Shown: positions 5,232 to 39,494 of the stretch, piece by piece
Layout of the letters: each line of letters begins with the position of its first letter
How positions within the stretch are numbered: the first letter of the stretch is position 1
Origin: Companilactobacillus pabuli
GTDB taxonomy: Bacteria; Bacillota; Bacilli; Lactobacillales; Lactobacillaceae
Length of the DNA stretch: 64,000 nt
Direction of reading: 5' to 3'
Assembly (NCBI RefSeq): GCF_014058425.1
Contig: NZ_CP049366.1
Location: 2,046,001 to 2,110,000, forward strand
Position numbers and translations under genes: made by a program
Notes under the pieces: generated by a model
Databases searched by the model: none
Seen by the model: the letters and a program-made list of their open reading frames with translations, nothing else
Told to the model about the DNA's origin: nothing

Positions 5232-6345
5232 TGTTTTCTCCTATCGCATAACTTTGACCGCCGATGATACTGTAAATTGGCTCTACAACAGTGTTAGTTT
5301 GAAATTTATTGCCATCTGAATCGACTAAATCTTTTGGTTCATTTTTGACATTAAAAATTGTTAAATCAGCATCCTTGCCGACTAATAATTCACCTTTATC
5401 CAAATTGAAATTGTGAGCTGGAACTGTTGTGATCATTGGAATTACTTGTTTCAAATCAAAACCTAGATAAAGCATCTTCTCAATACAAGTTGCCATGTTA
5501 TATACAGGACCATGCTCACGGTTGTGATGATAAATATCGGTGCTAAGACTTTGAGCAAAGACATTTTCTGTGGTAGCTTGCTGAGCTGTTTTGACATTAA
5601 AACTCTCGGAACCATGTCCAATATCAAAAATAATTCCTTTTGACAAAGCCTTTTTAACGAATTCTTTTACTTGTCCATCTGAATTCAAAATACCGTTGTC
5701 TTTACCATTGAAACAATGAGTAATAATATCGCCTTTCTCTAAAACATCCATTATTTCTGACAACGTTGGTGGATTAGTTCCAACATGGACCATCAGTGGC
5801 AAATGTTGCGTTAATAATTTTTGGAACATTTTGGCTTTAATTAGTGGCTTAATTCCATTGTCGACTACAACTGATTTGCTAATTCGAGCCTTGATGCCCA
5901 CGATAAATTCAGGATATTGATTAATCATCCTTTGAAGTGGCACATATTCAACTTTAGACATATCTGCCAACTCATTTTGAGCTAAAATACCCGTTTTAGA
6001 AATATTGATCATTGCAAAAACATTAGTCTTTTTTTGACGAGTAATCTGATAGAAATCTTCAATATTGTCAGCACCAGTGGAACCAGCATCAATCACTGTC
6101 GTAACTCCAGTTAAATAGCCGACTTTATCGGGATCATCATAATAAAGTGACAATTTTTCATAGCAGTGAACGTGATCGTCAATCCAACCGGCACTAACAT
6201 AAGAATCATTGTGTAAATCAATTTCCTCATCAGCTGCTATAACATCCAATTTAGGGCCGATTTGAGCAATTTTTTGATCCTCAATCAATATTTCCAAAGG
6301 AAAACCACTAATGTCTTGGCCATTTTTGATGTAAAGACTAGTCAC
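5218..6345 (-). CDS. Amidohydrolase/deacetylase-family metallohydrolase
   Basis: A metal-dependent hydrolase of the amidohydrolase superfamily, plausibly removing an N-acyl group before the DgaE-like step. Metal ligands appear as DDHVHCYE (the HxH motif, near residue 57), then MVHVGTNPP, ITHCFNGKDNG, DIGHGSESF and a late STDIYHHN Asp. Strong annotation precedents for this subgroup are in enterococci, where it also sits with SelA-like and aldolase genes. The start codon is GTG at 6345 with AGGAGG 5 bases upstream; an ATG two bases earlier is out of frame. The exact substrate is unknown. Confidence 0.8.
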   Translation of the reverse strand: MTSLYIKNGQDISGFPLEILIEDQKIAQIGPKLDVIAADEEIDLHNDSYVSAGWIDDHVHCYEKLSLYYDDPDKVGYLTGVTTVIDAGSTGADNIEDFYQITRQKKTNVFAMINISKTGILAQNELADMSKVEYVPLQRMINQYPEFIVGIKARISKSVVVDNGIKPLIKAKMFQKLLTQHLPLMVHVGTNPPTLSEIMDVLEKGDIITHCFNGKDNGILNSDGQVKEFVKKALSKGIIFDIGHGSESFNVKTAQQATTENVFAQSLSTDIYHHNREHGPVYNMATCIEKMLYLGFDLKQVIPMITTVPAHNFNLDKGELLVGKDADLTIFNVKNEPKDLVDSDGNKFQTNTVVEPIYSIIGGQSYAIGENNGSI

Positions 6346-10701: not shown

Positions 10702-11421
10702 ATGGACAGTGGAAATTTACCGAAATACAAAATTATTGAAGATGACTTACTAAATAAAATAAAAGCTGGTTTTTATAAACCCGATACGTTGATTCCTAAG
10801 GAAATAGAACTAATGGAGATTTATCACGTTAGTCGCCCCACTGTTCGTCAAGCAATTCAGACACTAGTTAACAAGGGACTGCTAGAAAAACGGAAACGTA
10901 GAGGAACGATTGTTAAGCAAAATAAGATTTCTCAAGAATTCACACATACCATTAAGAGTTTTAACAACGAAGTCAAAAGCAAAGGCTTCACTCCTCAAAC
11001 GCGCGTTTTATTTTTCCAAAAGGAACTACCAACTCCAGAAGTCTCCGCGGCATTAAATATAAATTCAAGCGATTCCGTCTACAAGTTGGTCAGATTACGA
11101 TACGCTGATACGCAACCCGTTGTTTTGGTAACCAGCTACATCCCTTATAATATTTTTCCATCTTTAAATAAATATGATTTCAACAAAGTTTCACTATACG
11201 ATACTTTAGATTCACACGACTGTCGGATAGTGCACGTTAAACGGAAATTAGAAGTTTTAAAAGCTGATGAAACTACGGCTGATTTATTAAACGTTGATAT
11301 TAATGATCCACTTTTTTATTTCCATACTGTTGGTACTACAGAGAATGACATAAAAGCTGAATATTCTATCGCTAAATATCGCGGAGATAATAATTCATTT
11401 GAAATTTATATCGATCGCTAG
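10702..11421 (+). CDS. GntR-family regulator with UTRA domain
   Basis: The N-terminal winged helix carries IKAGFYKPDTLIPKEIELMEI and the VSRPTVRQAIQTLVNKGLL recognition helix; residues ~75-239 form the UTRA effector domain (VTSYIPYNIFPSL, EYSIAKYRGDNNSFEIYI). It is co-transcribed with deoC (19-bp gap, AGGAG site) and is probably an autoregulator acting at 9910-9923. The ligand is unknown. A terminator follows. Confidence 0.88.
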   Translation: MDSGNLPKYKIIEDDLLNKIKAGFYKPDTLIPKEIELMEIYHVSRPTVRQAIQTLVNKGLLEKRKRRGTIVKQNKISQEFTHTIKSFNNEVKSKGFTPQTRVLFFQKELPTPEVSAALNINSSDSVYKLVRLRYADTQPVVLVTSYIPYNIFPSLNKYDFNKVSLYDTLDSHDCRIVHVKRKLEVLKADETTADLLNVDINDPLFYFHTVGTTENDIKAEYSIAKYRGDNNSFEIYIDR

Positions 11422-25742: not shown

Positions 25743-25780
25743 ATAAAAAAAGTGATTAACGATTTGACTCGTTAATCACT
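25743..25780 (-). terminator. Terminator of PTS system C operon
   Basis: AGTGATTAACGA (25751-25762) pairs with its exact complement (25769-25780); the minus strand continues into a T run. It separates system C from the system B promoter. Confidence 0.92.
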
Positions 25781-25793
25781 CTTACTTTTTTAC

Positions 25794-26219
25794 TTAAATT
25801 CCATCTGAGAAATCATCATCTTCAGTAGGTTCATCATCTAACGTAAATAATTCTACGCTATTCTTTGTTACTTTAATCAAATCCTTAGCATAATCATCTA
25901 AAGAATCATACGTATTAAAGGTAGTTTCAAGTAATGAGGCCAAATTACATCCGGAAACGACTTTAACATTATCATATTTATAAGCTATTTTAGCCGCTTC
26001 TTTATATGGTGTGCCCCCAATTAAATCAGTAAAGAATAGTACTGGTTCTTCATCATTAATTGATTTTAAGAATTCATCTCTAAGATCAGTTTCACTCATA
26101 CTCTCTTTAAAATCAATAAATTTCATATTAAGTTGTTTTCCAGCTAAAAGCTTAATAGCACCTTCAAAGCCATTGGCAAACATACCATGACCAGCCACTA
26201 TTGTTTTATATTGTGACAT
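25794..26219 (-). CDS. PTS mannose-family EIIA (system C)
   Basis: 141 aa with phospho-acceptor His11 in IVAGHGMFANG and a FFTDLIGGTPYKEA block. The acidic tail ends DFSDGI, matching the DGI end of EIIC C. It is the last gene of operon C. Confidence 0.9.
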   Translation of the reverse strand: MSQYKTIVAGHGMFANGFEGAIKLLAGKQLNMKFIDFKESMSETDLRDEFLKSINDEEPVLFFTDLIGGTPYKEAAKIAYKYDNVKVVSGCNLASLLETTFNTYDSLDDYAKDLIKVTKNSVELFTLDDEPTEDDDFSDGI

Positions 26220-26230
26220 AAACTAACCTC

Positions 26231-27031
26231 CTACATAATTCCTAAGAAGGAACATAGAATACAAAGTACAAATACTACAGCAATCAATACAATTGGAGAT
26301 ACCTTTTTCTTAAGTAGCCAGTACAAGAAGAAAGTAAATGCTAACGGTAAGATATTTGGAAAAATCTTATCCAAGAAGTCCTTTTGTAGAGAAACTGATC
26401 CAATTTTAACTTTTAGAGAAAGTGATACGTAGGAACTAATCAATGCACCAATTACGGTTAGACCCATAATTGTAGCAACTCTAGCAATAATCTCAGAGTT
26501 ATCTTGAATAACATCAATTGCCTTTACACCTAAGTTATACCCTAAATGAGCAAATGGAATTCTACATAGGAAAATTCCTAAGTATACTAAGAAGAAGATA
26601 ATCGGTCCTAAAATATTTCCCTTTGATGCAAAGGAAGCCGCAATACCACCAACAATTGGCATTAATGTGAACCAATATATGGCATCACCGATACCGGCCA
26701 TAGGACCAAATAAGCCATTCTTTAGTCCTCGGATTGTTTGTCTATTAACTCTTTTTTCTTCCAAACTAGTTAATAGTCCCATAAGGATTGGTACTAGTGG
26801 TGGTGAAGTATTGATAAATTCCATGTTATCTTGCATTGCTTCTGAAAGAGCTTTTTTGTCATCGCCAAAAATTTTCTTCCAAGTTGGAACTTGTGACCAA
26901 GCCCAACCACCGGCTTGCATACGTTCATAAGAAAATGCTGATTGTAAGAATGAAGAACGTAATCCTAGCATAGTTATATCATGACTATTCAATTTTCCAT
27001 CTTGAGTTTTCTTTTCTTCTTTAGATGCCAT
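26231..27031 (-). CDS. PTS mannose-family EIID (system C)
   Basis: Channel subunit: SAFSYERMQAGGWAWSQVPTWKKIF, SLEEKRVNRQTIRGLKNGLFGPMAGIGDAIYW and hydrophobic C-terminus. ATG 27031 is used (GGAGG 8 bases upstream; an in-frame upstream start at 27046 lacks one). Overlaps the EIIC end by 11 bp. Confidence 0.9.
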   Translation of the reverse strand: MASKEEKKTQDGKLNSHDITMLGLRSSFLQSAFSYERMQAGGWAWSQVPTWKKIFGDDKKALSEAMQDNMEFINTSPPLVPILMGLLTSLEEKRVNRQTIRGLKNGLFGPMAGIGDAIYWFTLMPIVGGIAASFASKGNILGPIIFFLVYLGIFLCRIPFAHLGYNLGVKAIDVIQDNSEIIARVATIMGLTVIGALISSYVSLSLKVKIGSVSLQKDFLDKIFPNILPLAFTFFLYWLLKKKVSPIVLIAVVFVLCILCSFLGIM

Positions 27032-27827
27032 CTTCTTCACCTCCACTTACACCGTTTTCTTTCATTTCATCAATTTGATCTTGTAACTTCTTGTTCTTCT
27101 TATCACGGAAGAATTCGATCATAGCAAATACAATACCAATAATTGCGGCAGGTAAAACATTTGAGAAGTTAATGAAACATGCAACAACGAATCCTAATAA
27201 TAGATATGGGACATATTCTACACGTAGTAGAACTTTTAGTAACATTGCAAAACCAACAGCAGGTAGTGCTCCACCAGCTAATTCAAAACCATGAATTAAC
27301 CAAGCTGGCATTGCTTTAACTAAAGCAGCCATAGGAGCTTGTGCAGCATATGCTGATAAGAAAATGACTACAAAGAATGAAATACATACAATAGTCATAA
27401 TTAAATATGGAATTGATCCAAATTTCTTAGTATCTGCTTCTTTTGCAGCCTTATCCATTACTGGCATAAATACTGAAAAGATTGAGTAAAACATCAATAA
27501 AATATATTGCATTAACATAGCAAATGGCAATGATAAGCCAATTGCAGTAGCTGGAGCTACATTTGTAGTATGGGCAATAACTACAGTCATAATCCCACAT
27601 ACTGCTGGGTTTGGTGGCTGAGTTCCGCCCGCAGGTGTCAATCCGGCAAAAGCTAATTCAGTCAATCCACCTGCAATAATACCTAAACGCAAATCCCCAA
27701 GTATTAATCCAGCTATAGTACAACTAATAATAGGTCTAAATATGTACAGAACTTCGAGCCATGAATCCAGCCCAGCTATAACGGCAAAGATAGCTAAGCC
27801 CAGTCCTTGAGCTAATGTGATAGCCAT
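27021..27827 (-). CDS. PTS mannose-family EIIC (system C)
   Basis: 268-aa channel subunit with GDLRLGIIAGGLTELAFAGLTPAGG, a variant of the family block closer to galactosamine-type EIICs, and GGALPAVGFAMLLKVLL. C-terminus SGGEEDGI. AAGGGGGAA precedes the ATG. No catabolic enzyme accompanies this system, so its sugar cannot be guessed. Confidence 0.9.
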   Translation of the reverse strand: MAITLAQGLGLAIFAVIAGLDSWLEVLYIFRPIISCTIAGLILGDLRLGIIAGGLTELAFAGLTPAGGTQPPNPAVCGIMTVVIAHTTNVAPATAIGLSLPFAMLMQYILLMFYSIFSVFMPVMDKAAKEADTKKFGSIPYLIMTIVCISFFVVIFLSAYAAQAPMAALVKAMPAWLIHGFELAGGALPAVGFAMLLKVLLRVEYVPYLLLGFVVACFINFSNVLPAAIIGIVFAMIEFFRDKKNKKLQDQIDEMKENGVSGGEEDGI

Positions 27828-27864
27828 GTTGGTTCCCCCTTATATATATTTAATAATCATGATA

Positions 27865-29094
27865 TTAGAAGTTTACTTGTGTTTTGTGATCCCCAGGTAC
27901 ATCTTCAATATAAACATTTACCCCTGCGTCTACTAATTTCATCAAATCTTTTTTATCAGCATCATCGACGTACACTTTCTTAGTTACTTCTTCTTTACCA
28001 GGTGCAAAGTGCATATTACCAACATTTACTTCTTTGATTGGAACTCCACCCTCGACCAATGCTAGAGCATCGGCCGGTGTTTTAACGACGATAAAAATCT
28101 TTTGACGATCAGCAGCTTTACCAATAATCTTAATTGTTTTCTCTAATGTAAAGAATCTGATTTGTGCACCCGAAGAATCAGCTGTACTCTTCATCAATTT
28201 TTGTTGAAGCACATCATCTGCAGCTTCATCATTAGCAACTAAAATTAAATTAGCCCCTAATGTTTTTGTCCATGTGACACCAACTTGTCCATGAACCAAA
28301 CGATTATCGATTCTTGTTAATAAAATATGTGGTTCCGACATATTTGTTTCCCCCTCGTTTTCTAAAAAGAATACTTTTGATGCAGATGGAGCAACTGCAG
28401 TACTCAAATAATCAACATTACCTTCATCGTTAAATCCTTGTGTCGTTGCTTCTACGTATGTATTTCTACGGGAAAAGTTTGGTAGAACTATCATCCTCGG
28501 AGAATGATCATCCACGCTAGTATTAATTTCATGTGATAAAAATGTTGGATCTAAACTGTATTTTTGAATCAGCATAGGCATTAATTCACGATTTTCAATC
28601 TCACTAGCTTTTATCATTGGAAAATCCTTAAAAGACAAGTAGGTAATTCTGTTAATCAAAGGAACCCTATCTGATAAATAAATTTGCTTTATTCTATACA
28701 GATACTCTGAATCTGTGAGACCCATCAATTCTCTGATTTTTTGTTCTTCTCCAAATGCCAGAATACTAAATTCCTCCAGCTTAATTTTCACATCATGATC
28801 ATGACGCTTTAATTGAACACTGGGAGTATCTACATAACCAATTCCTAAATCATCTGGATTAGAAGATTCTACAAAACTACCTCTACCTTGTTTCTTAACA
28901 ATGTATTTTCTTTCTTCCAGCTCTGCCAATGCTTTTCTTATGGTAATTCTACTAACACCATACTCATCACATAGAGTTTTTTCCGACGGCAACTTAGAAT
29001 CAACTGGTAATTGATCAGTTTCTATTTTGCGTATTAAATCTGCACTTATTTGCTCATACTGCCAAAATGGCTGTTTTTTCAATACTTTCACCAA
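27865..29094 (-). CDS. GntR/UTRA regulator fused to PTS EIIB (system C)
   Basis: One open frame of 409 codons joins two proteins. Residues ~1-251 are a GntR winged helix (VDSKLPSEKTLCDEYG, VSRITIRKALAELEER) and UTRA domain. Residues 252-409 are a complete EIIB with active His at RIDNRLVHGQ (residue ~268). The EIIB's own ATG is at 28341, preceded by GAGGGGG (28350-28356) at ideal 8-base spacing, so free EIIB may also be made by internal initiation. The extreme start is uncertain: TTG 29094, GTG 29091 or TTG 29082, all with weak sites. The junction lacks only a stop codon. It may be a true fusion, or a stop lost by mutation or sequencing error. Confidence 0.85.
   Translation of the reverse strand: MVKVLKKQPFWQYEQISADLIRKIETDQLPVDSKLPSEKTLCDEYGVSRITIRKALAELEERKYIVKKQGRGSFVESSNPDDLGIGYVDTPSVQLKRHDHDVKIKLEEFSILAFGEEQKIRELMGLTDSEYLYRIKQIYLSDRVPLINRITYLSFKDFPMIKASEIENRELMPMLIQKYSLDPTFLSHEINTSVDDHSPRMIVLPNFSRRNTYVEATTQGFNDEGNVDYLSTAVAPSASKVFFLENEGETNMSEPHILLTRIDNRLVHGQVGVTWTKTLGANLILVANDEAADDVLQQKLMKSTADSSGAQIRFFTLEKTIKIIGKAADRQKIFIVVKTPADALALVEGGVPIKEVNVGNMHFAPGKEEVTKKVYVDDADKKDLMKLVDAGVNVYIEDVPGDHKTQVNF
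28341..28356 (-). promoter_or_regulatory. Internal Shine-Dalgarno and ATG for EIIB C
   Basis: GAGGGGG is followed 8 bases later by the ATG at 28341-28339 inside the fused GntR-EIIB frame. The spacing and strength match the other operon genes, which suggests that a 158-aa EIIB is translated separately. Confidence 0.75.
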
Positions 29095-29125
29095 CTTGTC
29101 ATATCAATATAACAACCATGGCTTT

Positions 29126-29163
29126 ATTATAAATCGGCCTATAGTGTTATGTCAACGCTTTCA
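29126..29163 (-). promoter_or_regulatory. Operon C promoter with perfect cre
   Basis: TTGACA (29150-29155) with TATAAT (29126-29131) 18 bases away, or TTATAA at 17. TGAAAGCGTTGACA (29150-29163) matches the cre consensus fully and covers the -35, so CcpA should repress it. A TGTCAT half-site of the nearby operator lies at 29098-29103. Confidence 0.8.
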
Positions 29164-32511: not shown

Positions 32512-33204
32512 TTATATTCCTACAACAAATTTAAAATTAGCTTGTTCACCGTATGTAACTATGACATGTTCAACAACAATATCATTTGAATCATATATAT
32601 CACCTTCCATTTGTAACAAAGGGATTCCTTCCTTAGCATTAAATAAATTTGAAATATTTTTATTGCTAATTATTGCATTAGCTGAAATATCAGCCTTCGA
32701 TGGAAAAACAGAATATTTTTTTCTTAAAACTTCATATAATGAATTATCTTCAAAATCATACTTATCTAACCCTGGATATTGTGATAAATCCAATTCAGAT
32801 TCATCTAACGTAAGCCATATCATCTCCTCGCTATTTTTTATTCCTCTAAGTCTCTTCAAGTATAGATGATTATTAGTAACAGTCTTTTCTAATGTTTTAG
32901 TGATGGGGTTATTATCAATTTGTGATGCAAAATCAGAAAATCCTTTATAATTTATAATGTCAATTTTGGGTTGATTATACTTGATAAAACTACCCTTCCC
33001 TTGGATTCTTTCTATTAATTGTAAATTTTCTAAATCGCTCAAAGCTTTTTGAACTGTTGATCTAGCCACACCGTATATCTTTGAATACTCAGATTCAGAT
33101 GGTAGTTTGTCCCCGATAGATCCATTTTTATATATTTCATTTTGTATATCTGCAACTATTTGTGCCCTAATATTTTTACGAGTATTTTTTCTATTAATTT
33201 GCAT
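32512..33204 (-). CDS. GntR-family regulator with UTRA domain (system D)
   Basis: Winged-helix residues ~1-75 (GSIGDKLPSESEYSKIYG, VARSTVQKALSDLENL) and a UTRA domain (MIWLTLDESELDL, IVVEHVIVTYGEQANFKFVV). It leads operon D and probably controls it, with two inverted repeats of a 6-4-6 pattern upstream as candidate operators. Weak ribosome binding site (AGGTTAATAAA). Confidence 0.87.
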   Translation of the reverse strand: MQINRKNTRKNIRAQIVADIQNEIYKNGSIGDKLPSESEYSKIYGVARSTVQKALSDLENLQLIERIQGKGSFIKYNQPKIDIINYKGFSDFASQIDNNPITKTLEKTVTNNHLYLKRLRGIKNSEEMIWLTLDESELDLSQYPGLDKYDFEDNSLYEVLRKKYSVFPSKADISANAIISNKNISNLFNAKEGIPLLQMEGDIYDSNDIVVEHVIVTYGEQANFKFVVGI

Positions 33205-37598: not shown

Positions 37599-38063
37599 TT
37601 AATTAAATTCTTGTCTACTTTCACTAGGAACTTGTTGAATATAAACATCAGTTCCTTCATTTTTAAGCTTTTTTAAAGCGCTTACTTCATCATCAGTTAA
37701 ATTGATCGTCTTTGAATAATTTTTTGTACCTTCACGAGGTTTTGTTCCTCCAAGATTCAAACTTTTAACGACATTATTTGTTCCCTCAATAAGTTTCTTT
37801 GCGTCTGCTACTGATTCAACAACGACTAACATCTTATACTTATCTGTGATTCCTGAATTAATTGCTTTAATACTGTCGTCAATTGATTTCATTACTAGTT
37901 TCGCATTTTCTGGTTTAGCTAATCTAATAGCCGATTTTCTAAATTCATCATTTGCTACAGAGTCATTTGCCACCAAAATTGTATTAGCTCCAACTGAACC
38001 AAACCAAGCAACGGCAACCTGCCCATGAAGTAATCTATGATCTACTCTTAATAACTCAATCAT
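37599..38063 (-). CDS. PTS mannose-family EIIB (system E)
   Basis: 154 aa, active His13 in RVDHRLLHGQVAVAW. The ATG at 38063 has AGGAGGAT upstream and follows the GntR stop by 13 bp; a longer frame to 38096 would overlap the regulator. Confidence 0.92.
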   Translation of the reverse strand: MIELLRVDHRLLHGQVAVAWFGSVGANTILVANDSVANDEFRKSAIRLAKPENAKLVMKSIDDSIKAINSGITDKYKMLVVVESVADAKKLIEGTNNVVKSLNLGGTKPREGTKNYSKTINLTDDEVSALKKLKNEGTDVYIQQVPSESRQEFN

Positions 38064-38076
38064 TATTAATATCCTC

Positions 38077-38766
38077 CTAATCAAAGTCCACAACATATTT
38101 AGTACTCATTGCGGATTTATATCGATACTCTAATCCAATTGGTTCTTCATTATTATTAAGAAACTTATTATATATCTTAAAAACAGGTTCCTTTTGATCA
38201 ATTTCAAGTTGCTTTGCTAATTCATGATCCGCTTTAATCAAGCGAAGAATCTGATCTAAATCACTAACACTTTGTAATCCAGTGTTCATACTCTCCATTA
38301 TTGAAAGAACCTTAATACTAGATACTTTAAAGTTTGGATAATTACTTAATGGAAGAACTAAAATTTCTTTTGTGATTCCATCCTTATCAAGTTGTAAAAA
38401 GACAATATAATAAACCAAATCTGATTTTTTAATCTTTAACTCATCGGCAAAATAAGGACCAGCTTTTCTTAAAAAGCTTTCTTTTACTTGCTGTTTATTT
38501 ATTTGAACATCCTCTGATTTCATAACACCTGTCATTTCTAAAATATTTTGATTTGACATTGATGGTGCTACAAATAATCCAACCCCTCTCTTACGTATGA
38601 CTAAACCGTCATCCACCAACTGATCTATAGCTTTTCGGACAGTCGTTCTGCTCACGTCATACATTTTTTGAAGTTCTACTTCATTAGGAATCTCTTCTCC
38701 AGACAAATATTTACCATTTGTAATTTTTTCAGATAATTCGTTTGCTATTTTATCGAATAAGGTCAT
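38077..38766 (-). CDS. GntR/UTRA regulator 2 (system E)
   Basis: Winged helix (GKYLSGEEIPNEVELQKMYD, VSRTTVRKAIDQLVDDGLV) and UTRA domain (LVLPLSNYPNFKV, IGLEYRYKSAMSTKYVV). Its ATG shares one base with the stop of the preceding GntR gene, so the two are made in a fixed ratio. One could sense a distinct ligand or form a heterodimer, but that is not shown. Confidence 0.87.
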   Translation of the reverse strand: MTLFDKIANELSEKITNGKYLSGEEIPNEVELQKMYDVSRTTVRKAIDQLVDDGLVIRKRGVGLFVAPSMSNQNILEMTGVMKSEDVQINKQQVKESFLRKAGPYFADELKIKKSDLVYYIVFLQLDKDGITKEILVLPLSNYPNFKVSSIKVLSIMESMNTGLQSVSDLDQILRLIKADHELAKQLEIDQKEPVFKIYNKFLNNNEEPIGLEYRYKSAMSTKYVVDFD

Positions 38767-39494
38767 CAATCTAAATCCTCCTTATAATCAAAAATATTGG
38801 TAGCGTGAAGAATATATTGAAATTTACTTCCTGATAAAAATTGGTCTGTATGTTCAATAGGATTATCATCGGCATCAAAGTTATAACTCGATACTTTAAA
38901 CAATGGAAAATCTAAAGGTATCCCTAAAATTTGAGATTTTTTTTCATCTGCTTTAACACATGAAATTTCTTCTCGTCCATAAGCAACCTTTACTGAATAA
39001 TATTTCTCTAAGGTTTTGTATAGGGAACCTTTTTCAAAATCACTACTTAAAAGTTTAGGAAAACAAGAATTATTGACGTAAGCAATTTCATATGAAATAG
39101 GTACACCTTCATTTTTACGTATTCGTTCTATCCTTATTAATTTTGATCCTTTTTTTCCATCAAAAAATCTTTTGATTTTTGTGCTCGGATAATTAACTAA
39201 ACCTCTAGAAAGCTGAACTACTTCTACATCCTGATTATCCATTTGTAATTCTTCACTCATAGACCCGGAACCAAGCATATTAATTGATATTGTTTTATTT
39301 GCCCTTAATTTTCCATCAACTCTAATCAGTTCATTATTACTTTCTAAACGATGAATAGCTGACCTTATAACAGAACGACTTACTCCCAATTCATCAGATA
39401 TTTTCCTTTCTGATGAGAACTCTGTTCTATCTCTCATTAAAAGTAAAAGATCTTCCTCTACTTTTCTTACAGAAGAAATATCTTTATATTCCAT
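38766..39494 (-). CDS. GntR/UTRA regulator 1 (system E)
   Basis: First gene of operon E. The winged helix has FSSERKISDELGVSRSVIRSAIHRL; the UTRA domain has ISYEIAYVNNSCFPKLL and PIEHTDQFLSGSKFQYIL. It differs clearly from regulator 2 beyond the family level. Probable operator: the 18-bp palindrome at 39548-39565. Confidence 0.87.
   Translation of the reverse strand: MEYKDISSVRKVEEDLLLLMRDRTEFSSERKISDELGVSRSVIRSAIHRLESNNELIRVDGKLRANKTISINMLGSGSMSEELQMDNQDVEVVQLSRGLVNYPSTKIKRFFDGKKGSKLIRIERIRKNEGVPISYEIAYVNNSCFPKLLSSDFEKGSLYKTLEKYYSVKVAYGREEISCVKADEKKSQILGIPLDFPLFKVSSYNFDADDNPIEHTDQFLSGSKFQYILHATNIFDYKEDLD

Follow-up and report, generated by a model that had tools for sequence, protein, structure and literature searches.

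It is only partly understood by what means HutC regulators of amino-sugar phosphotransferase system (PTS) operons detect their substrate. AgaR1 and AgaR2 are GntR/HutC regulators of GalN/GalNAc genes in Lactobacillales, and for AgaR2 no ligand was found in the study describing them (PMC4694137). A locus in Companilactobacillus pabuli offers a compact case, with two likely products, one frame and a conserved internal ribosome-binding site. It lies in the window, the whole stretch of 64,000 nucleotides that was analysed (contig NZ_CP049366.1), where a regulator of this class continues in frame into the EIIB subunit of the PTS encoded beside it. That a regulator of this kind is naturally fused to its own transporter's EIIB points to the transporter as the input, and suggests a switch able to feel sugar uptake directly. 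Is the fusion real, does it recur, and could the EIIB domain inform the regulator to which it is joined?

The fused frame and its distribution

The minus strand between 27865 and 29094 is a single open frame of 409 codons, counted from its first TTG, in which a GntR/HutC regulator (winged helix plus UTRA) and a complete PTS EIIB of galactosamine type (AgaB) are joined with no stop codon between them. Pfam places GntR (PF00392) at residues 12-75 (3.6e-17; 62.2 bits against a cut-off of 27), UTRA (PF07702) at 117-191 (4.3e-6; 27 bits against 23.8; profile positions 19-93 of 141) and PTSIIB_sorb (PF03830) at 257-403 (3.3e-49). The C-terminal third of the UTRA profile found no Pfam match in the regulator half, and the Pfam hits of the fused protein include no PRD domain. 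With an N-terminal GntR winged helix and a C-terminal UTRA domain, the regulator half has the domain make-up of the HutC subfamily. The EIIB half belongs to the mannose/sorbose family and to its galactosamine type (AgaB): it covers 147 of 148 profile positions and scores 251.5 bits, above the cut-off of 180 of the NCBIfam galactosamine IIB equivalog (NF007288). The in-frame fusion and the complete EIIB described in the first-pass annotation are both borne out, the active-site motif included. The closest solved EIIB is the GalNAc-type AgaB of E. coli, 3eye (E 6.7e-74); the PDB chain consists of an EIIB of 168 residues alone, whereas the fusion carries a regulator.

The fused gene probably starts at TTG 29082, because an SD-like GGTGA (29088..29092, minus strand) lies 5 nt ahead of it, because the start codons of its clade agree, and because the RefSeq start of the L. 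paracasei homologue is the equivalent ATG. The codon at this place is ATG in five and TTG in five of the ten clade members compared, with GGTGA ahead in all ten. The TTG at 29094 was dropped in favour of this start, so the frame drawn earlier from 27865 to 29094 stands as an open frame but its start codon does not. The predicted product has 405 residues. Residues 1-240 (28363..29082, minus strand) form the regulator half, and EIIB begins at residue 248; the same 158 amino acids, counted from an internal ATG (27865..28341, minus strand), would serve both as a free EIIB and as the C-terminal domain of the fusion. His264 (codon 28291..28293, minus strand), within RIDNRLVHGQV, is invariant in 7/7 aligned rows, and this histidine of the LVHGQ motif is the phosphorylation site expected for the EIIB family.

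Ten genomes, the window's own among them, and three plasmid records of L. paracasei have the fusion intact; the fused rows share 42-78% identity with the protein of the window. Full-length, stop-free matches were found in 4/36 genomes of the genus, 9/397 of the family (G000, the window's own genome, with G002, G026, G007, G496, G645, G611, G720 and G640) and 3/395 of the order (G000, G007 and G122), as well as in 1/29 of the family of G122; the surveys from family to phylum scored four to six candidates per genome. At the level of class (1/348) and phylum (1/299) the match was G000 itself, with no further fused match at E <= 1e-70 among the five to six candidates scored per genome. Nine plasmid records covered at least 80% of the query, all of them from L. 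paracasei; three are fused, all typed conjugative, and six carry separate genes. RefSeq names the whole fused 408-aa plasmid protein 'PTS galactosamine transporter subunit IIB' (L059 6013-7239, L060 1423-2649 and L128 513-1739), a name that hides the DNA-binding half.

A stop codon lost only in this strain, or a sequencing or assembly error, had been the simple alternative, and that many relatives carry the regulator and EIIB as separate genes speaks for it. Nine further genomes and three plasmid records with the frame likewise intact refute it, and its probability is negligible. The comparison of the junction among relatives turned up one break of the kind that the first-pass annotation had listed as refuting the fusion, but the ten intact genomes outweigh it. 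In the draft genome of the close relative G552 (70 contigs; L114 near 5890-5980, minus strand), the EIIB ATG is read through in the frame of the regulator, whereas the rest of EIIB is encoded in a different frame, either through draft error or through decay. A different GntR gene (L023, L026), found in many genomes of the genus, has an EIIB gene behind it in the same frame, with a single stop codon between the two, and the window's own genome has a match of this kind at G000:C1:1919662-1920810. Fusions like the present one might have had such an arrangement as their precursor.

A tree of 54 EIIBs places G552, the plasmid form of L. paracasei and the window gene, together with the genes of eight other genomes, in one clade (98/86). 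Its sister group comprises 13 EIIBs (97/88), and no homologous regulator was found in the flanking sequence available for them (0/13). G640 pairs with the separate-gene G060 (94/93), outside the main fused clade. Because this tree groups all fused forms but G640, there were probably two fusion origins. The regulator tree unites nine fused rows in a clade (100/100), next to which G552 branches, but groups G122 with the separate genes (93/85), apart from the other fused rows; G122 and G552 are both flagged there as long branches, and the count of origins depends on where G122 is placed. None of the titles and abstract openings listed in the literature searches describes a GntR-EIIB fusion or this operon. 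A GntR/UTRA regulator joined to the EIIB of its own galactosamine PTS is a real architecture, new to the literature surveyed, and probably a recurrent one.

The junction and selection on the frame

The two halves are joined by the linker ENEGETN (28342..28362, minus strand), over which lies a GAGGGGG (28350..28356, minus strand; duplex energy -10.7 kcal/mol), 8 nt ahead of ATG 28341, as first described. A strong SD is present at 11/11 fused junctions, with a mean of -10.2 kcal/mol and a range from -6.5 (G640, the weakest) to -11.9. By comparison, 101 other in-frame ATGs of the same fused genes average -2.0 kcal/mol, five of them reaching -6.5, and 16 separate EIIB genes have a mean of -8.3 kcal/mol. 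The fused linkers vary in length, in the codon phase of the SD and in peptide, with ENEGETN, KQKLRGGNN and RHKEEHT among the versions; since all three change, the SD is conserved as nucleotides. This conservation supports a second product, a free EIIB from the internal start, and the suggestion of such a product in the first-pass annotation thus gains comparative backing.

If the fused protein were instead the sole product, acting as both EIIB and regulator, the internal SD would be idle. PTS domains work in many fused forms, and the next EIIB-only match in the window's own genome, among the matches listed, is 39% identical. The retention of the SD nucleotides through changes of peptide, length and phase, at a strength matching that of separate EIIB genes, makes this improbable.

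Local RNA structure masking the internal SD was considered and dropped, as it stood out only in G007 (z -2.37), the five others folded giving -0.33, 0.70, 0.05, 0.19 and -1.16. In that genome (L065 6724-6793), the U-rich tail of the UTRA region and the internal SD pair with each other, as though the SD had to be opened by translating the regulator.

The main competing reading is a passive fusion: after loss of the regulator's stop, the EIIB tail would simply be tolerated and would transmit nothing, all PTS work would fall to the free EIIB from the internal start, and the regulator would respond to a small molecule. The strength of the internal SD suits it, as does G552, in which the frame can be seen to break. 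The probable double origin of the fusion speaks against it, and so does the behaviour of the frame: the linkers of the intact fused genes differ by whole codons, with zero frame changes, although fused rows are in frame by definition, while the EIIB ATGs of 16 separate pairs occupy frames 0, 1 and 2 in 4, 8 and 4 cases, requiring seven changes on the EIIB tree and six on the regulator tree. The regulator itself is under purifying selection in seven pairs, with dN of 0.05-0.20 (HTH) and 0.07-0.34 (UTRA) and dS of at least 0.88 or saturated.

Neutral appearance of stops was simulated from four starting linkers over ten tips, on an all-site and a third-position tree. On the all-site tree, the probability that none of the ten tips acquires a stop was 0.006-0.08 if all linker sites could vary and 0.03-0.40 if the SD was kept fixed; the third-position tree gave 0.003-0.017 and 0.01-0.17, respectively. 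When G122 was omitted, the corresponding values were 0.015-0.12 and 0.055-0.50 on the all-site tree, and 0.0045-0.03 and 0.02-0.20 on the third-position tree. With the SD held, a short linker free of stops is thus not very unlikely under neutrality, as a passive fusion would have it, and the tests favour selection on the fused frame moderately at best. Overall, a passive fusion is a serious possibility, though we would not expect it to be the correct one.

The operon and its control region

The fusion is followed on the minus strand by genes for EIIC (AgaC; 27021..27827; NCBIfam 396.1 bits, cut-off 300), EIID (AgaD; 26231..27046; 426 bits, cut-off 400) and a mannose-type, AgaF-like EIIA (25794..26219; PF03610), and the four-gene operon ends in a terminator-like hairpin of 15 pairs plus a T run (25748..25783, minus strand). 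EIIB, EIIC and EIID pass the NCBIfam galactosamine cut-offs; EIIA, at 100.1 bits, is under the AgaF cut-off of 130. EIIC and EIID come directly after the fusion in all 11 loci mapped, which comprise the window and ten others, G496 and the copy L001 being counted once. A window-like EIIA follows in eight of these, and in G720, L. paracasei and G640 its place is taken by another gene, like the L. paracasei 'hypothetical'. Between the window (25794-29082) and L064/L073 of G002/G026, EIIC and EIID are 93-94% identical, EIIA 70-74% and the regulator half 69%; evolution is thus much quicker in the regulator and in EIIA than in the membrane subunits.

Upstream is a sigma-70 promoter, TTGACA-N18-TATAAT (29126..29155, minus strand), with 12/12 consensus matches. 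A candidate CcpA site, TGAAAGCGTTGACA (29150..29163, minus strand), overlaps the -35 and matches the cre consensus. Such a cre-like site precedes 24/27 homologous regulators, the exceptions being G122 and both of the L. paracasei forms with separate genes.

Downstream of the -10 and ahead of the start codon lies a 20-bp palindrome (29096..29115, with no strand assigned), likely an autoregulatory operator and conserved upstream of homologues. Its pattern TTGTTATANNNNTATAACAA occurs with no more than 3/16 mismatches ahead of 27/27 fused and separate regulators, compared with 33/5600 base shuffles; G552 was scored as well but excluded from the 27, as its start had been misplaced and the stretch used missed the site. 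That separate-gene relatives bear the same palindrome also speaks for a passive fusion. A search of the window's own genome with up to three mismatches gave one exact copy, and on account of this single copy the regulator's likely target is its own operon. The next-best site (one mismatch) is upstream of a small helix-turn-helix gene. No regulon beyond the operon is proposed, as a reversed control pattern gave more matches than the palindrome pattern (23 against 19). A short frame in the palindrome, ATG GTT GTT ATA, was rejected as a leader peptide, being shorter in L. paracasei and lacking its ATG in G122.

In the text available, AgaR1 and AgaR2 resemble the present system in being HutC-type proteins beside a galactosamine PTS, in their even palindrome (20 bp and AT-rich for AgaR1) and in their predicted autoregulation (PMC4694137). 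They differ in that no fusion is mentioned, the word 'fused' being absent from the main text, and the few AgaR sites shown do not resemble the palindrome found here (PMC4694137).

Regulator input and related systems

Other HutC proteins respond to a variety of effectors. The closest solved regulator by sequence is NagR/YvoA (2wv0, 4u0v), which likewise combines a winged helix with UTRA and controls an amino-sugar operon, but which has no EIIB and whose Arg133 and Arg135 are not kept in the fused regulator; in NagR, these two arginines hold the phosphate of GlcN-6-P, and Glu145 is among the sugar contacts (PMC4333415). With NagR-equivalent columns placed by hand through a remote UTRA alignment, arginine is found at the 133 or the 135 column in 0/25 regulators, a set that lacks the fused plasmid form and one of the two plasmid forms with separate genes. 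The Glu145 position holds Glu in 12/15 separate and 0/10 fused regulators, and Arg in 9/10 fused regulators and in the separate G060. This contrast does not represent many independent events, because the fused rows share ancestry, and the loss of the arginines needs no fusion, because the separate-gene relatives lack them as well. Nor is pocket loss tied to the mere presence of an adjoining EIIB gene, since in G010 and G003 an unrelated GntR that has an EIIB gene in line next to it reads KRLRFADGIPVMLERTYLP, with R-x-R and Glu kept. Judged from this alignment, the regulator family, fused or separate, is without a NagR-type pocket.

Operon position, pocket loss and analogy with PTS-gated regulators together make it plausible that EIIB is the regulator's input. 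The reading that we favour, at a confidence close to even, is that one frame yields two proteins, an autorepressor gated by its EIIB domain and a free EIIB. The 405-aa GntR/UTRA-EIIB chimera would bind the palindrome between promoter and start codon and repress its own galactosamine PTS operon, while the 158-aa EIIB made from the SD and ATG 28341 would take part in transport. Flux of galactosamine, or of a related amino sugar, through EIIC and EIID would leave the EIIB domain of the chimera dephosphorylated, docked on the membrane complex, or both; the repressor would then leave its operator and the operon would open. CcpA at the cre site may add glucose repression.

A broader form of this EIIB-gated repressor can be put forward more tentatively. 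In it, a HutC repressor without small-molecule sensing would use the catalytic EIIB of its transporter as a built-in flux sensor, and the internal start would set the ratio of sensor to free EIIB. Such a design would have at least two origins and would also travel on conjugative plasmids, and the separate relatives may bind a neighbouring EIIB in trans.

PRD regulators such as LevR and LicR carry EIIA/EIIB-like domains; the fusion differs from them in being a GntR/UTRA protein with the sorbose-family EIIB of its own transporter and no PRD. MtlR, as far as the available text describes it, is alike in being a transcription regulator whose built-in PTS-like domains interact with the transporter, and a title cited there refers to its sequestration at the membrane by an EIIB domain (PMC6148471). 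By this precedent the EIIB tail might mainly anchor the regulator to membrane-bound EIIC/EIID, its phosphorylation being irrelevant. The full conservation of the EIIB active-site motif weighs against an anchor of this kind, although the shared frame would force such conservation if a free EIIB is needed, and only a slim chance is left to it.

The two other GntR-led mannose-type PTS systems in the window do have separate GntR and EIIB genes, as previously noted. In another GntR-led PTS (37599-38769, minus strand), 20 nt are shared by the frame of GntR and the one called as EIIB, which are separate genes. Among the four other UTRA regulators of the window, judged by eye, those at 10702 and 38766 keep R-x-R, that at 38077 is without it and that at 32512 is gapped there. 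Between 10702 and 42478, several mannose-type PTS systems are clustered with SIS-domain genes, a GH31 enzyme, LacI regulators and ROK-type proteins.
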